DNA of 43,692 bases from a virus: positions 1 through 43,692 of IMG/VR virus record IMGVR_UViG_3300042310_000405; one strand, given 5' to 3'. This document shows positions 3,961 to 43,692 of the stretch, piece by piece. The first letter of the stretch is position 1; every line of letters begins with the position of its first letter. The translations under genes were made by a program, and so were the position numbers. The notes under the pieces were generated by a model, which saw only the letters and a program-made list of their open reading frames with translations, did not search any database and was not told the DNA's origin.

Positions 3961-4215
3961 TTACTCCACAATTTGAATTGAACGGCTGCGAATTGGGAGG
4001 CGTCGCAGATACCCACGCTGAACAAGGCCGCTCACTAAACCATGAGCCCCGCTCTTGGAGGATAAATTCAAGCCTTCCTTGATCTCGTCCATGCTGGGAG
4101 AGATACCGCCGGTGTCGCGAATGTAATCCCGGATAAACACAAGGGCTTCGTGCTGCTTGGCTGTAAGACCAAATCGCTCGGCTTGTGTTTCGGGTTCTGT
4201 TCTGGTGCTGTTCAT
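3961..4215 (-). CDS. LexA-type winged-helix DNA-binding protein without protease domain
   Basis: Product of 84 residues. Residues about 14-84 (LTAKQHEALVFIRDYIRD, then ISPSMDEIKEGLNLSSKSGAHGLVSGL, then GYLRRLP) match the N-terminal DNA-binding domain of LexA. The Ser/Lys autopeptidase and dimerisation domain of full LexA is absent, so the protein could not self-cleave. The ATG lies directly downstream of a promoter-like element with no ribosome site, which suggests a leaderless message. A GAAC-N7-GAAC element covers the first codons (4199-4213). It is the first gene of the leftward operon and faces a Cro-like gene across the control region. It is probably a repressor or a competitor for host SOS operators. 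Confidence 0.85.
   Translation of the reverse strand: MNSTRTEPETQAERFGLTAKQHEALVFIRDYIRDTGGISPSMDEIKEGLNLSSKSGAHGLVSGLVQRGYLRRLPIRSRSIQIVE
4199..4213 (-). promoter_or_regulatory. SOS-box-like element GAAC-N7-GAAC at the start of the LexA-like gene
   Basis: On the minus strand GAAC-AGCACCA-GAAC begins at the last base of the start codon. GAAC-N7-GAAC is the LexA operator type of many alphaproteobacteria. About one chance match is expected in a window this long, so its position at a promoter and at a LexA-like gene is the main argument. Confidence 0.45.
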
Positions 4216-4221
4216 ATTGTG

Positions 4222-4250
4222 CTTATGCAACCCCCGCTTGCTGGTGTCAA
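4222..4250 (-). promoter_or_regulatory. Leftward early promoter (TTGACA, 17 bp, CATAAG)
   Basis: On the minus strand a perfect TTGACA (4245-4250) is followed after 17 bases by CATAAG (4222-4227). The expected start of transcription falls at or within two bases of the ATG at 4215, and no Shine-Dalgarno sequence is present, so the message would be leaderless. Confidence 0.6.
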
Positions 4251-4260
4251 CTCCCATTTG
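4248..4260. repeat. Operator-like 13-base direct repeat, copy 1
   Basis: CAACTCCCATTTG on the plus strand; copy 2 (CAATTCCCATTTG) is at 4294-4306, differing at one base. Copy 1 overlaps the -35 box of the leftward promoter. Binding here would block leftward transcription. Confidence 0.55.
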
Positions 4261-4270
4261 GAAAAAAATG

Positions 4271-4299
4271 TTGACGCAACATACCGCGCCGTGCAATTC
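4271..4299 (+). promoter_or_regulatory. Rightward early promoter (TTGACG, 17 bp, CAATTC)
   Basis: TTGACG at 4271-4276 and, 17 bases later, the weak -10 candidate CAATTC at 4294-4299. The next ATG (4308) is only nine bases further and lacks a ribosome site, again pointing to a leaderless message. The -10 is poor, so the assignment rests on spacing and symmetry with the leftward promoter. Confidence 0.45.
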
Positions 4300-4306
4300 C
4301 CATTTG
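4294..4306. repeat. Operator-like 13-base direct repeat, copy 2
   Basis: CAATTCCCATTTG, matching 12 of 13 bases of copy 1 at 4248-4260, in the same orientation and 46 bases away. It covers the -10 and start region of the rightward promoter. Confidence 0.55.
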
Positions 4307-4307
4307 C

Positions 4308-4592
4308 ATGACATACCCAAACCCGCTTGATAAATGGATGACCGACAACGGCGTCACCAACACCGCCGCCGCTGAAATGCTGCGCGCACATGGCTACAAT
4401 CTAAGTGTTGAGCGTGTTCGGCAATTGCGCTTTAGTTTTGATGATGAGCGCTTTGGAGCCCCATACTGGCCGACCATGCAGGCAATCTACCTCATGACCA
4501 ACCGGCAAGTGACGCCCAACGATTGGGCTGACCCAGCAAAGTTTCCCGGCATTAAGCCAAAACCAAGGAGAGAGAAGCATGGAACAAACTGA
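4308..4592 (+). CDS. Cro/CI-type helix-turn-helix protein
   Basis: Product of 94 residues. Residues about 15-45 (NTAAAEMLRAHGYNLSVERV) form a helix-turn-helix-like segment. The end MQAIYLMTNRQVTPNDW is the pattern common in small lambda-type Cro or toxin-antitoxin-like phage HTH proteins, in which a residue list of the form AI...T.G.VTPNDW closes the domain. It is the first gene of the rightward operon and divergent from the LexA-like gene, an arrangement typical of a two-repressor switch. It has no ribosome site and is probably translated from a leaderless message. The C-terminus is basic. Confidence 0.75.
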   Translation: MTYPNPLDKWMTDNGVTNTAAAEMLRAHGYNLSVERVRQLRFSFDDERFGAPYWPTMQAIYLMTNRQVTPNDWADPAKFPGIKPKPRREKHGTN

Positions 4593-10308: not shown

Positions 10309-10368
10309 CCGAACAAGAGCAAACCCCATCTGCACTGCCAAATCAGAATTTCGGAGCGCACTAGACCA

Positions 10369-12057: not shown

Positions 12058-12768
12058 CTAGGCGGCCAAAACCGCCTTCACCAAATCGTCTTCCGTGATC
12101 TCTTTCAGTTTGCATTGGGGATTGTTGCGCACGTGATCGTTATAGACTTCCGCTTGACGTTCGCGGCTGATACCCATTGCAGCAAGTGAGCAAGGGACTC
12201 GAGCGCTCATAAAACGGTCCTTTTCGCTTATAAAGCCCGTCATGTCTGGAAAGACGCCGCGTGAAGCCCTTGCAAGCCCCGCCAAATATTCGTGTTGATA
12301 GCTTGTCATCTTGCCTAGCTTCGCACGGCGCTTGATTGCCACCGGGCCGGGGCTTGGCTTGGGCTTTGCAATGGGTGCACGCGCTATCGGCTTAGGCTTA
12401 GCGCTGACTGGCTTTTGTGGCGCTGGCTTGGCAATGTCCATGGGATAGACCGTAAAGCCCCATAGCGCGTCTAATGGTTGCTTATGCCCCATGACTTCAA
12501 CGCCGCTTGCCCGGTCTACCGTTACCCCGCGTGATTTGGCGTGATTGTATGTCTCCCAATGGGTGACGCCATGATCACGATAAGACAGGGCCAACAAGTC
12601 AAGGCTTGCCCCGGTGACTTGCGGTCCGCCTAAGATCACGGGCTGGCTGTCCATGTAATGTTCCCATGAATGATACTCATTCGCGCTCGAGTTGGACTGA
12701 TGATTAAGCGCGACACGATCTTTCACAAATAGGGGCTTGCTGGCTGTTGATTGTTTACGATTGGACAT
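12058..12768 (-). CDS. Two-domain phage protein with Pro/Lys linker, unknown function
   Basis: Product of 236 residues with a GGAG site upstream. An N-terminal domain of about 110 residues (HSWEHYMDSQPVILGG, then LLALSYRDHGVTHWETYNHAKSRG) is joined by a Pro/Lys/Ala-rich linker (about 113-150: KPAPQKPVSAKPKPIARAPI) to a C-terminal helical domain (TSYQHEYLAGLARASRGVFPD onward) ending in KEITEDDLVKAVLAA. No family recognised. Its place behind the ArdC antirestriction gene makes it a candidate anti-defence factor, which is inference. Confidence 0.7.
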   Translation of the reverse strand: MSNRKQSTASKPLFVKDRVALNHQSNSSANEYHSWEHYMDSQPVILGGPQVTGASLDLLALSYRDHGVTHWETYNHAKSRGVTVDRASGVEVMGHKQPLDALWGFTVYPMDIAKPAPQKPVSAKPKPIARAPIAKPKPSPGPVAIKRRAKLGKMTSYQHEYLAGLARASRGVFPDMTGFISEKDRFMSARVPCSLAAMGISRERQAEVYNDHVRNNPQCKLKEITEDDLVKAVLAA

Positions 12769-12826
12769 AAGCTGGACTCCATCTTGCGGCCCGATTGCCG
12801 CTTGTTTGATCTATGACAGATCACTA

Positions 12827-12856
12827 GGGCCCATCCCCCGATTGAACGATGGGCCC
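12827..12856. terminator. 9-bp perfect hairpin downstream of the ArdC gene pair
   Basis: GGGCCCATC (12827-12835) and GATGGGCCC (12848-12856) with a 12-base loop, nine bases beyond the stop of the 21-residue microprotein. It could attenuate transcription into the downstream 236-residue gene. No T-tract. Confidence 0.45.
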
Positions 12857-12865
12857 GCGTAAGTG

Positions 12866-12931
12866 TCACATAAAGAAAGCCCAAAAGATTAGGGCCAACG
12901 GCACTAGAAAGAGATAGTCGCGCGCGTTCAT
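12866..12931 (-). CDS. 21-residue membrane microprotein coupled to the ArdC gene
   Basis: Open frame MNARDYLFLVPLALIFWAFFM. A hydrophobic span covers nearly the whole peptide after a charged start. Its ATG overlaps the ArdC stop (ATGA), and a G-rich purine tract precedes it at ribosome-site distance. Coupling and hydrophobicity favour translation, but the length leaves room for chance. Confidence 0.5.
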   Translation of the reverse strand: MNARDYLFLVPLALIFWAFFM

Positions 12932-13869
12932 GCGTCCCCCCCCTCAACGTCTAGCCCCATGCCCTTTAGGATATAATCGCATGCCTTTTGGGCTTGTGAA
13001 GCGGCGCTGATGATAGCGCTAGAGTGCTCTTTCAAGCATTGAACCCATGACTTCACATAGGCCGCATGGCTTTCAATGTGATCTACCGGAAGCCCCAAAT
13101 GAGCCCCAAGAAAAGCGCTAGTCAATTCAGCGACTAATTCTTCAAAGGCATAGCGTTCGTCGCCAAAGCGCTGTCCCTTAACCCGGTTCAATCGGCTTGG
13201 GGCCCCGGTCCAATGTGCGAATTCGTGCGCTAGCGTCGCGTAGTAGGATTCGGGCGATTCAAAGTCAGCGGGGTAAGGCATTTGGATATAGGCCCCATCA
13301 GACTTACAAAAAGCCCGATTGCCACCATGGCGCACGTCCGCGCCTAGTTTGGCAAATAGCGCTTCCAGATCGGGACGCGGCCCGGTGGTGGCTGGCTTGT
13401 CATGGGTGACAGCGAAAGTCTCGGGCAAGCCGTCACATTGGTCAGCATTGAACACATAGTATGTTTTGGCAAACAAGCGCGCGAAGTCTGGTTTTGCATC
13501 GTCATCTTCCGAATCATCTTTCTTTCCAGCAACACCATAAAAGACAATCCATGTGCCCTTTTCACCTTTGCGGACTGCGCCGCCCGCGTCTATCGCACCC
13601 TTAAACGTTAGCCAGTAAGGCGATTGGAAGCCGTGTTGCGTTGCAGCGGCCCATAACAAAAGAGTATTAATACCCCGGTACGGCTTGCCATTAGAGCGCA
13701 AAGGCATGCCAAAAGACATATCCCCCGATTGCCATGGCTTAACCCATGGACGAGTCCCTGCCTCAATTTGTGCAAGGATAGCTTGTGTAACGCGCTCTGC
13801 AACGGTCATCTTAGGCGCAGTGTCGATTTGCGCGGATTTGGCGGCTTGCTTTGCTTTTAGATTTGCCAT
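12928..13869 (-). CDS. ardC: ArdC-like antirestriction protein (ssDNA-binding domain plus zincin metallopeptidase)
   Basis: Product of 313 residues. Residues about 20-145 form the ArdC N-terminal ssDNA-binding domain (VTQAILAQIEAGTRPWVKPW, then GKPYRGINTLLLW, then AGGAVRKGEKGTWIVFY). Residues about 160-290 form the zincin-like metallopeptidase domain with the HEFAH motif (H215-E216-x-x-H219) and a downstream FEELVAEL helix that would give the third zinc ligand. ArdC of plasmid pSa protects incoming DNA from restriction; related proteins are common in phages and mobile elements. It is the first gene of the reversed block, with a strong promoter and an AAGGGA site. A role against host restriction is likely. 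Confidence 0.9.
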   Translation of the reverse strand: MANLKAKQAAKSAQIDTAPKMTVAERVTQAILAQIEAGTRPWVKPWQSGDMSFGMPLRSNGKPYRGINTLLLWAAATQHGFQSPYWLTFKGAIDAGGAVRKGEKGTWIVFYGVAGKKDDSEDDDAKPDFARLFAKTYYVFNADQCDGLPETFAVTHDKPATTGPRPDLEALFAKLGADVRHGGNRAFCKSDGAYIQMPYPADFESPESYYATLAHEFAHWTGAPSRLNRVKGQRFGDERYAFEELVAELTSAFLGAHLGLPVDHIESHAAYVKSWVQCLKEHSSAIISAASQAQKACDYILKGMGLDVEGGDA

Positions 13870-13918
13870 GATCTTAGTCCCTTAGATTCAGCGGCCCCAT
13901 GCCGCGTCTATGCCCGAT

Positions 13919-13947
13919 CATATACAAGTCCCGCTTGCATTGGTCAA
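13919..13947 (-). promoter_or_regulatory. Promoter of the ArdC block (TTGACC, 17 bp, TATATG)
   Basis: On the minus strand TTGACC (13942-13947) and TATATG (13919-13924) are separated by exactly 17 bases, giving a leader of about 40 bases before the ArdC start at 13869. A GCGGC/GCCGC hairpin (13891-13905) lies in that leader. Confidence 0.6.
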
Positions 13948-21734: not shown

Positions 21735-23000
21735 ATGGCCCACATTACCGTCCCAGACGAGTCGACTAAAACCACGTTTATCGTGACGACTTCACAGTCG
21801 ATCTTTTCGATTCCGTGGACGCTATTCGATAAGACTGACATTCAAATCACGGTCGGTGGAGTCGCCCTTACTCAGGGCGACTTTACCTTTGCACCTAATA
21901 CAGACTTTGAAGGCGGGTTCAACGGCGGGCAGGTCACGCTAAACACGCCCGTCTCCAGTACAACCGTTGTCATTTACCGCAAAATCATCACGGCTAGGAC
22001 GGAAGACTTTGGCGCGGGTCCAGTGTCGGCGCGCGATAGAAACACGGCGCTAGATCGCCTTACCGCTATGGCTCAAGATGCGCGTCGGGATATTGATTCT
22101 GGCAGCACGGGCGGGGCTGGAGTTACCGATGGCGACAAGGGCGACATCACGGTATCGGGCTCTGGTGCAACTTGGACAATCGACGCGGCGGCGGTCAGCA
22201 ATTCCAAACTTTCAAACATGTCCGCATCCACCTTCAAAGGGCGGATTACTGGCAGCACTGGATCTCCTGAAGATATGACACCAACGCAAGCGACTAGCTT
22301 GCTTGATGTGTTCACCTCTGGGGCAAAAGGCCTTGCTCCCCTCTCTGGCGGCGGCACGACCAATTTCCTGAGGGCGGACGGCACTTGGGCTGCGCCTCCG
22401 GGCGGTGGGGGCGGCGTAACGTCTGTAGGCGGGACTGGCACGGTCTCTGGCCTGACACTGACTGGAACGGTCACTAGCACGGGTAACTTGACGCTGGGCG
22501 GGGCTTTGTCTGTCTTGCCTAGCAACTTTGCCTCCCAGACTGCGAACACGTTCCTTGCGGCTCCTAGTGGCTCTGCGGGCACGCCTACGTTCCGCGCTAT
22601 TGTTGCGGCTGACATTCCGACGCTGAACCAGAACACCACGGGATCGGCTGCAACTCTGACGACTGGCCGCAACATCACGATGACGGGTGATGTGTCGTGG
22701 ACGGTTAGTTTCAATGGTGGCGCTGCGGTTTCGGCGGCCGGCACGATTCAGGCTCAGGCTGTCACCTATGCCAAGATTCAAGCGGTCGCAGCCAATAGCG
22801 TTCTAGCGCGGGCCGCTGCGACAAGTGGCGATGTTGGTGCGGTCGCCTTGTCCGCTTCTCAGCTATTTGGGCGCGGCTCAACGGGCGATCTAGCCCCGAT
22901 CACGCTCGGCACAAATCTTTCTATGTCTGGCACCACTTTGAACGCTACGGGCGGCGGTGGTGGTGGCTCTGCGTCGTATTTTAACCCCTTCACCTTCTGA
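21735..23000 (+). CDS. Tail fibre protein 1
   Basis: Product of 421 residues. Residues 1-120 ([20 protein letters not shown]..., [32 protein letters not shown]) form an N-terminal virion-anchor domain like that of T7-type fibres, shared with the tailspike at 34083. Residues 130-400 are Thr/Gly/Ser-rich beta-repeat shaft, including the fibre motif [18 protein letters not shown]. The C-terminus ends [16 protein letters not shown]. It likely makes a trimer that contacts the host surface. Placing a fibre gene between head and tail genes differs from T7 order. Confidence 0.85.
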
Positions 23001-25210: not shown

Positions 25211-25336
25211 GCTTGGCTCAGTCAGTAACTTCATCGCTCAAATGCCATTTGACGCGCCTGCTGCGATTTTGTGGGCTGATAATTAATGCCTAAGCTAGTG
25301 CGTTCTTTGTGTGCGTAATGCGGGGGATTATGGCGC

Positions 25337-34038: not shown

Positions 34039-34082
34039 CTCGTGCGTGTTTTATATGGGCTGTGGCGGGCAGATTGTGCGCC

Positions 34083-36068
34083 ATGGCCCATATCACTGTC
34101 CCCGATGAATCGACCGTAACAACCTACACGGTAACAACCGCGCAAAGTGTATTTAGCGTGCCGTGGACTTGCTTTGACAAGACCGATATTCAAGTTTTAG
34201 TCGGCGCTAGTCTCTTGTTGCAAAGTGATTTTTCCTTTGCTGGAAACCCCGGAACTGAAGGCGGGTTTGATGGGGCAACAATTACGCTTGTTGCTGCCGT
34301 CTCCAATACTACGGTAACGATCTATCGGGACATCATCGTTAAGCGAACGGATGACTTTGGCGTTGGGCCTGTGTCTTCTCGTGATCGCAATACGGCGCTC
34401 GACCGCGTGACCGCAATGATTCAGGACGTGAAGCGGATTGCCAAGGGCGTTGCCCCGACAGTCCCGTTGCTTCCAGATGTGGTTCAGACGATAAGCAATA
34501 TTGTGGCTTTACGCGCTGTCTCTTGGCCAAACGGACGACCAACACAAGTTTGCTTGGTTAGCAATTGGGCAACGGGTGACGGTGGCGGGACATTCCGTTG
34601 GGACGCAGCCTCAACCGCAACAGAAGACGGCGGCACAATCATCAAGGAGACGGCTGTCACTACGGGTCGTTGGTTGCGTCAATTCTCTGGTCAAGGCGTC
34701 GTGTCCTCTTGGTTCTCGGCAACCGTTCACACAGGCGTGCAAGCCGCTTTAAACGCCAATTATGACTACATCCTGCTGCCAAACTTCACGGGGCCGATTA
34801 ACTGGACTGGACAGGTCACGCTGCCACAGGGTCGCCGGATCACTATTGAAGGCGGCGGGGAAACCATCTTTGTCAATGCCAACATAACGTCGATTTACTA
34901 CAAGCGCGATGTTGCGGCGGCTGAACCGACTGAATTGCGATTTACCAATGCGGGCGGCGTCATTGTCGAAAATGGCTTGGCTCGCACGGGCATCTTCATC
35001 GACTTCCGTGGATCGGCTGTCACGACTGGCATGACCATCACGCGCTCTGGCGGCACGGCAACGGTTAGCTTGCCGTCCGCTCACCTGCTATCCAGCGGGG
35101 CGACGGTGGAAATCCAAGGCGCAACTCAAACTGAATATAATGGCCGCTTTACCTGCACGGTCACAGGCGCAAACACCTTCAGCTATCCAGTCACGGGCAC
35201 ACCTGCAACGCCTGCCACAGGCAATCTCTGTTTTAATGGCCAAGAGACGACCAATTACAACAATAACCGCGTGTTGGTCGAAAAGTGCGAATTTAGAGGT
35301 TTTGCAAAGAGCGTCTATTCTGAGCGCACGGGCGGTCATATGGAAATGATTGTCTCGCGCTTTAACGGCATTGCTTGGGAAAGCGGTCGCGATTCCAGCT
35401 TCTTCGCACTGTCGGATATTCTGTCGGTCAATGACATCACCACCATATATTACCTCGACGTCTATCCAAACGGGCTATCTAACGGCGTTTCAATGGATCG
35501 GGTTTATTCGGTTCTTGCTGGTGGCACGGGCTCACTAGGCGGCATGTATATGGTTGGCCTTGAGGGGATGACAGGGCAGTCAAACTCCATCGACCTTTGC
35601 TTCGGTGCAACCTACGGCCTTACCCTGATCTACTGCACAAGCCTTGATCTTGAGTTTGTTTGGATTGCCTCGGACTTGACCCAAGCCGCCTCGCATCGTG
35701 GCTGGTATCTGGAAGATGCAATCAGGTCCACATTCAGGGTCGCCTCCAACGTCAGTTCCTTTGTGGTTGGGTGGGTCGAAAGTAGCCGCTTCCCAACTCA
35801 GCCGCTTTATTTGTCGCTTAACATGCCTCTTTTTTATGGTGCGGCAAACGCAGGGATTGTGTTCAACAACGCAATCGGAGTGTCGGTTGAGCCGGGCTAC
35901 AAGTTTACAAACGCCATGCCGCGCACAGGCACTGATTACGAGTTTGTTGGGATCAACACCTGCAACCGAAACACGATTGGTCAAGGCCACATGCGGGGTT
36001 CGTCTTACACGATTGCTCCCGGCACTGGCGCCGCTTCAATCGTTGTTGCCCCCCTATTCATCCCATAA
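34083..36068 (+). CDS. Tailspike / receptor-binding protein 2
   Basis: Product of 661 residues from ATG 34083, chosen because [11 protein letters not shown] repeats the start of fibre 1 at 21735; a frame extension to 34062 lacks that match. Residues 1-120 are the shared virion anchor. Residues about 155-200 (NWATGDGGGTFRWDAAST) form the linker typical of pectate-lyase-fold tailspikes. Beta-helix-like sequence follows. Residues about 315-380 look like an inserted Ig-like module (YNGRFTCTVTGANTFSYPV). The C-terminal part continues as beta-helix to GTGAASIVVAPLFIP. It probably binds or degrades surface polysaccharide; no catalytic residues can be assigned by eye. Confidence 0.82.
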   Translation: MAHITVPDESTVTTYTVTTAQSVFSVPWTCFDKTDIQVLVGASLLLQSDFSFAGNPGTEGGFDGATITLVAAVSNTTVTIYRDIIVKRTDDFGVGPVSSRDRNTALDRVTAMIQDVKRIAKGVAPTVPLLPDVVQTISNIVALRAVSWPNGRPTQVCLVSNWATGDGGGTFRWDAASTATEDGGTIIKETAVTTGRWLRQFSGQGVVSSWFSATVHTGVQAALNANYDYILLPNFTGPINWTGQVTLPQGRRITIEGGGETIFVNANITSIYYKRDVAAAEPTELRFTNAGGVIVENGLARTGIFIDFRGSAVTTGMTITRSGGTATVSLPSAHLLSSGATVEIQGATQTEYNGRFTCTVTGANTFSYPVTGTPATPATGNLCFNGQETTNYNNNRVLVEKCEFRGFAKSVYSERTGGHMEMIVSRFNGIAWESGRDSSFFALSDILSVNDITTIYYLDVYPNGLSNGVSMDRVYSVLAGGTGSLGGMYMVGLEGMTGQSNSIDLCFGATYGLTLIYCTSLDLEFVWIASDLTQAASHRGWYLEDAIRSTFRVASNVSSFVVGWVESSRFPTQPLYLSLNMPLFYGAANAGIVFNNAIGVSVEPGYKFTNAMPRTGTDYEFVGINTCNRNTIGQGHMRGSSYTIAPGTGAASIVVAPLFIP

Positions 36069-43279: not shown

Positions 43280-43692
43280 GACTTACTCCATTCTGCAAAG
43301 ATTTGATCGCGGCGGACTTCAAGGAAATCCAAGATTGCCAACGTCTCAGCGGCTTTAGGCTTACCTGCGTAATTATCCGCGACGTGCTGGCGATATTGCT
43401 CAATCGTGAATGAGCGGCATCCAGCGACAACGACATGCTCACCTAAGCAGCACACGCGCAGGCTAAAGAAATAGCCGTCTGAGCGGGCTGGACCCTGAAC
43501 GATGGCTAATCCACGGGAGAGGTCTGCGCCATAAAGGTCTGCGCCCCCAAGGTATGCGCCATAAAGGTTTGCGCCATAAAGGTTTGCGCCCCCAAGGTAT
43601 GCGCCCCGAAGGTTTGCGCCCCCAAGGTTTGCGCCCCCAAGGTTTGCGCCCCCAAGGTTTGCGCCCCCAAGGTATGCGCCCCCAAGGTTTGC
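43276..43692 (-). CDS. Pentapeptide-repeat protein, C-terminal part (continues from the left end of the window)
   Basis: This is the right-hand part of the gene that begins at 272; it runs in from the window edge and stops with TGA at 43276-43278. After repeats (ANLGG, AYLGG, ANLYG, ADLSR), a non-repeat C-terminal domain of about 77 residues follows: GLAIVQGPARSDGYFFSLRV, then EHVVVAGCRSFTIEQYRQHV, then ETLAILDFLEVRRDQIFAEW. This C-terminal domain, with a Gly-Cys-Arg core and a helix at the end, is frequent in phage pentapeptide proteins. With the 41-base overlap merged, the whole protein is 215 residues. Confidence 0.88.
   Translation of the reverse strand, partial: ANLGGAYLGGANLGGANLGGANLGGANLRGAYLGGANLYGANLYGAYLGGADLYGADLSRGLAIVQGPARSDGYFFSLRVCCLGEHVVVAGCRSFTIEQYRQHVADNYAGKPKAAETLAILDFLEVRRDQIFAEWSKS
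43516..43692 (-). repeat. 15-bp tandem repeat array (right part)
   Basis: Eleven complete units and one partial 15-base unit encoding pentapeptides. These units vary more than the left part: several read CTTTAT (Leu-Tyr) or end in a changed base, so the array decays toward the 3-prime end of the gene. Bases 43652-43692 are identical to bases 1-41. Confidence 0.92.
43652..43692. repeat. Terminal direct repeat, right copy (circular closure overlap)
   Basis: Identical to bases 1-41. Merging the copies keeps the pentapeptide reading frame, whereas a direct end-to-end join without merging shifts it. This supports a circular or circularly permuted genome of 43,651 bp. Confidence 0.9.

Follow-up and report, generated by a model that had tools for sequence, protein, structure and literature searches.

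The box GTTCN7GTTC is the consensus site of alphaproteobacterial LexA, as described for Caulobacter (PMC12700426), and gp6 of phage GIL01 binds a palindrome of its own, GaCACAnnTGTGaC, and activates late genes (PMC6182141). At the locus analysed here a gene for a LexA-like protein and one for a Cro-like protein diverge from a 92-bp intergenic stretch, a box of the alphaproteobacterial type lies at the start of the former, and several copies of a 13-bp site lie between the two, with a further copy in front of an ardC-type gene. We describe these sites, the predicted promoters in which they lie, and the proteins that may bind them.

The window, by which we mean the whole stretch of DNA that was analysed, covers all 43,692 bases of one virus record in IMG/VR. 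Because the same 15-bp tandem array is found at both of its ends and one kin contig spans from the terminase over the window end to the exonuclease at the window start, we take the record to represent, in practice, a complete genome that is circular (or circularly permuted) and was broken within the array. The kin contig IMGVR_UViG_3300027977_000140 wraps to the exonuclease, has other genes upstream, and stops before the control region. For recombination and replication the genome encodes RecT, a PDDEXK exonuclease-like protein, RusA, an MT-A70 methylase, a primosomal protein and, by our reading of an open reading frame, a DnaB-type helicase with relatives in IMG/VR; an ArdC anti-restriction protein, terminase, portal, capsid and endolysin are also encoded, and the host is probably an alphaproteobacterium. 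Six-frame searches of the genome, with positive controls, returned neither tyrosine nor serine integrases (PF00589, PF00239) nor an S24-peptidase repressor (PF00717), and we thus consider a shut-off of early genes likelier than a lysogeny switch. Two other proteins (21735-23000 and 34062-36068) have a common N-terminal stretch of 13 residues, as if one attachment domain were used by two tail proteins.

Table 1. Features of the early control region, the ardC locus and the record ends; positions are those of the window, and promoters and their starts are predictions.
Feature	Position	Strand	Remarks
LexA-like protein, 84 aa	3961..4215	-	DNA-binding domain only, peptidase absent; Pfam LexA_DNA_bind (PF01726), E 1.1e-11
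SOS (LexA) box GTTCTGGTGCTGTTC	4199..4213	+	consensus alphaproteobacterial GTTCN7GTTC; covers first lexA-like codons
Leftward early promoter TTGACA-N17-CATAAG	4222..4250	-	rank 10 of 87,322 positions; start predicted at 4215 (A of ATG)
Operator copy CAACCCCCGCTTG	4228..4240	+	occupies last 13 bases of the leftward promoter's 17-nt spacer; 20 bp from the 4248 copy
Operator copy CAACTCCCATTTG	4248..4260	+	3-base overlap with leftward -35 (TTGACA, 4250-4245)
Perfect palindrome ATGTTG-ACG-CAACAT	4268..4282		over rightward -35, midway between two operator copies; sole exact genome copy
Rightward promoter, weak	4271..4299	+	good -35 TTGACG; poor -10 (CAATTC at N17 or TGCAAT at N15); best rank 186
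Operator copy CAATTCCCATTTG	4294..4306	+	ends 2 bases 5' of the cro-like ATG
Cro-like protein, 94 aa	4308..4592	+	distant homologues divergent to CI/XRE repressors
ardC-type anti-restriction gene	12928..13869	-	putative third operator target
ardC cluster leftward promoter TTGACC-N17-TATATG (or N19-TATGAT)	13919..13947	-	rank 19th (5th with the 19-nt spacer); kin-conserved
Operator copy CAAGTCCCGCTTG	13925..13937	+	fourth copy; in leftward ardC promoter spacer, same position as the 4228 copy
15-bp tandem array CCAAGGTTTGCGCCC	1-178 and 43534-43692		both record ends; reading frame gives RPQGL/RPQGM pentapeptides

An earlier note on this DNA had described a 13-base repeat at 4248-4260 and 4294-4306, and these are indeed the sole places in the window that match CAAYTCCCATTTG with zero or one mismatch. 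A 12/13 direct repeat arose within the 92-bp intergenic stretch in 2 of 1,000 dinucleotide shuffles and is present in 12 of 948 genome stretches of that length, and the repeat is unlikely to be a product of chance. The relaxed pattern CAANNCCCNNTTG, which was derived from the first sites and is therefore a post hoc choice, has four matches in the genome (4228, 4248, 4294 and 13925) against 0.67 expected, a number that none of 100 shuffles reached. With at most one mismatch, all seven matches to CAANYCCCRNTTG are intergenic, versus 11/92 (12%) for column-permuted motifs; the four exact copies are all intergenic, three of them within the divergent early region. Since CAANY is read from both sides in every copy, the kin version included, the site appears to be a dyad-symmetric operator, CAANY-CCC-RNTTG, centred on CCC, and more than a simple direct repeat. 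The proposal of an operator shared by the divergent early promoters is thus supported, with a dyad in place of the direct-repeat pair, and the extra copies at 4228 and 13925 make the sites a small regulon, not just a pair. A search of IMG/VR, extended to a wider pattern, returned no pairs of the 13-bp site.

Two of the copies have closely similar settings. The leftward early promoter has the layout TTGACA-CCAG-CAAGCGGGGGTTG-CATAAG and the ardC promoter the same layout, TTGACC-AATG-CAAGCGGGACTTG-TATATG, and both rank in the top 20 of the predicted sigma-70 promoters. The 4228 and 13925 copies fill the final 13 bases of the spacers of these two strongly predicted promoters, an arrangement that suggests an operator for a repressor. 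In the window there are two occurrences of the composite TTGACN5CAARYGGGRNTTGNATA; shuffles gave none, even when one mismatch is allowed, and elsewhere in IMG/VR it is found in kin only. The repeat had been placed over the leftward -35 and the rightward -10, of which the first overlap is real, though of 3 bases only, and the second concerns a poor hexamer. The palindrome that lies midway between two of the copies is possibly the site of a second regulator. Three further intergenic sites with one mismatch (25239-25251, 10320-10332 and 12832-12844, the last inside a terminator-like hairpin) are absent from the kin loci where this could be checked, and we do not claim them; a site of the same look at L027:6100 is without such a promoter, and we judge it to be chance.

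Most genes of this phage have a Shine-Dalgarno match, and the lexA-like and cro-like genes are without one, as the earlier note had stated. For the lexA-like gene, this and the predicted start on the A of its ATG make a leaderless message likely, whereas a leaderless cro-like message is possible only; the claim that transcription starts at or next to both ATGs agrees with the leftward prediction and finds a weak promoter on the right.

The ardC-side operator can be followed in kin. In two of them (L002 and L003) it reads CAAGCCCCATTTG and lies within the same TTGAC/TATAT frame, its bases changed and the dyad CAANY/RNTTG kept. One of the two (L002:3105-3334) is missing the segment that corresponds to 12061-13879 of the window, with ardC and the next gene, and retains the operator-bearing promoter. 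Kin contigs do not extend over the early region, so the three copies there, together with the SOS box, are seen in one genome only, and a search of phage records found no DNA relatives of the early control region.

The rightward protein has no significant Pfam match and no close relatives in an IMG/VR search, and its single-sequence structure model is poor (five helices, pLDDT 55) and gave no fold match. Bacterial genomes contain distant homologues (E 9e-6 and weaker), and in four genomes or more these lie opposite a CI/XRE protein, which makes the label Cro-like, already used in the earlier note, a reasonable one. Given that its family sits opposite CI-type repressors, the Cro-like protein would be the likeliest binder of the 13-bp site. 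At one distant homologue opposite a CI gene (L070:1402-1435), CAACAGGCTGTTG and CAACAAATCAGTTG lie 20 bp apart, the spacing of the 4228 and 4248 copies; these CAAN7TTG sites are suggestive but missing at the other homologues, and we do not claim them.

The leftward protein is LexA-like, as had been proposed, its closest match being alphaproteobacterial LexA (46-51%), whose recognition helix SKSG.H is kept. The alignment to LexA stops at the DNA-binding domain, the C-terminal self-cleaving peptidase is not present in the 84 residues, and the match to the LexA equivalog TIGR00498 scores 43 bits against a cut-off of 111; close relatives were not found in an IMG/VR search. The SOS box at its start codon is the single GTTCN7GTTC of the genome, with a third part-box, TTTC at 4188, in register at 11-bp spacing. 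One copy is an unremarkable count when 1.31 are expected by chance window-wide, and only its position is notable (by our own arithmetic, about 0.003-0.004 are expected for a stretch of this size). All three alphaproteobacterial lexA genes examined have an exact GTTCN7GTTC upstream, and the box is not a general feature of LexA-domain-only genes, since none of the other phage and plasmid examples examined has one at the start of the gene. It lies just downstream of the predicted leftward start, and a repressor bound there would be expected to block polymerase. The idea of one control site for both units had overlooked this box, and two different control sites, probably with two proteins, had been missed or merged.

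Several other readings of the 13-bp site have to be weighed. A repeat without function would be compatible with the background of 12/13 repeats in the genome and with the post hoc choice of the relaxed motif, but a fourth site that lies in a promoter and is conserved in kin argues against it, as does the permuted-motif control, and we give this reading little weight. We consider it similarly improbable that the element switches its promoters on, as a spacer contact or an activator site; although its identical spacer position in two promoters would fit, the copies at 4248 and 4294 lie outside any spacer, and the -35 and -10 hexamers of the promoters are already good in themselves. Use of the sites by a host transcription factor seems very improbable to us: phages do borrow host regulators, such as CtrA or LexA (PMC9437464), but a search of 84,980 species genomes gave just five occurrences of the composite, scattered among unrelated phyla, which is close to the four or so that we estimate for chance.

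The remaining question is which phage protein would bind. The LexA-like gene is divergent to the cro-like gene, where homologous regions place CI-type repressors, and GIL01 gp6 offers a precedent for a phage LexA-domain protein with an altered site of its own (PMC6182141), so that the 13-bp sites could be bound by the LexA-like protein, acting as the repressor of both units. Its recognition helix, however, is of the alphaproteobacterial LexA type, a matching box lies at its own start, and the 13-bp site is unlike GTTCN7GTTC, and we regard this assignment as unlikely.

We lean, with some reserve, towards early control by the Cro-like protein on the 13-bp dyad, combined with separate SOS-box control of the leftward unit; proteins are assigned to sites here from gene slot and recognition helix, and we infer the binder's identity, the repression, its timing and leaderless translation. 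In this model CAANY-CCC-RNTTG would be the target of a phage repressor that acts as a dimer, most likely the Cro-like protein under its own control, and binding would close the leftward unit (lexA-like to exonuclease and RecT), the rightward unit (cro-like, rusA, helicase) and a third early unit, the ardC cluster. Bound at either leftward promoter, the repressor would block access to the spacer that separates -35 from -10; on the rightward side it would lie over the start. A second control would act on the leftward unit at the SOS box, bound by host LexA, the phage LexA-like protein, or both. A more specific proposal, which we offer tentatively and think doubtful as a whole, is that a cleavage-proof phage LexA domain, made from a leaderless SOS-box-controlled gene, reads the host SOS box and holds both its own unit and the SOS genes of the host closed despite DNA damage, with Cro closing the early units through the separate 13-bp operator.

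The analysis yields a defined putative operator sequence and regulon for an uncultivated phage group. A peptidase-less LexA domain in the CI slot, beside a host-type SOS box, would make the early recombination genes responsive to DNA damage in the host, or else block its SOS response.

Among described systems, the lambda-type cI/cro region with OL and OR likewise has divergent early units with one dyad operator repeated several times over the promoters, a gene in the Cro slot heading the rightward replication unit, and a leftward unit that holds recombination genes (here exonuclease and RecT). It differs in that no S24-peptidase CI or integrase was detected in this phage, the CI slot is occupied by an isolated LexA DNA-binding domain, and one of the operators is 9.6 kb distant, ahead of ardC. 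GIL01 gp6 is also a phage protein consisting only of a LexA DNA-binding domain, beside LexA-controlled phage promoters (PMC6182141), but here the recognition helix is still host-LexA-like and the gene carries the box at its own start codon, and GIL01 belongs to another host class and virus type. The SOS box has the exact alphaproteobacterial consensus (PMC12700426, for Caulobacter) and, like the Sphingomonas lexA promoter, a third part-box with a spacing of 11 bp; it differs in its place, which is within the opening codons of the phage gene and not upstream of it.
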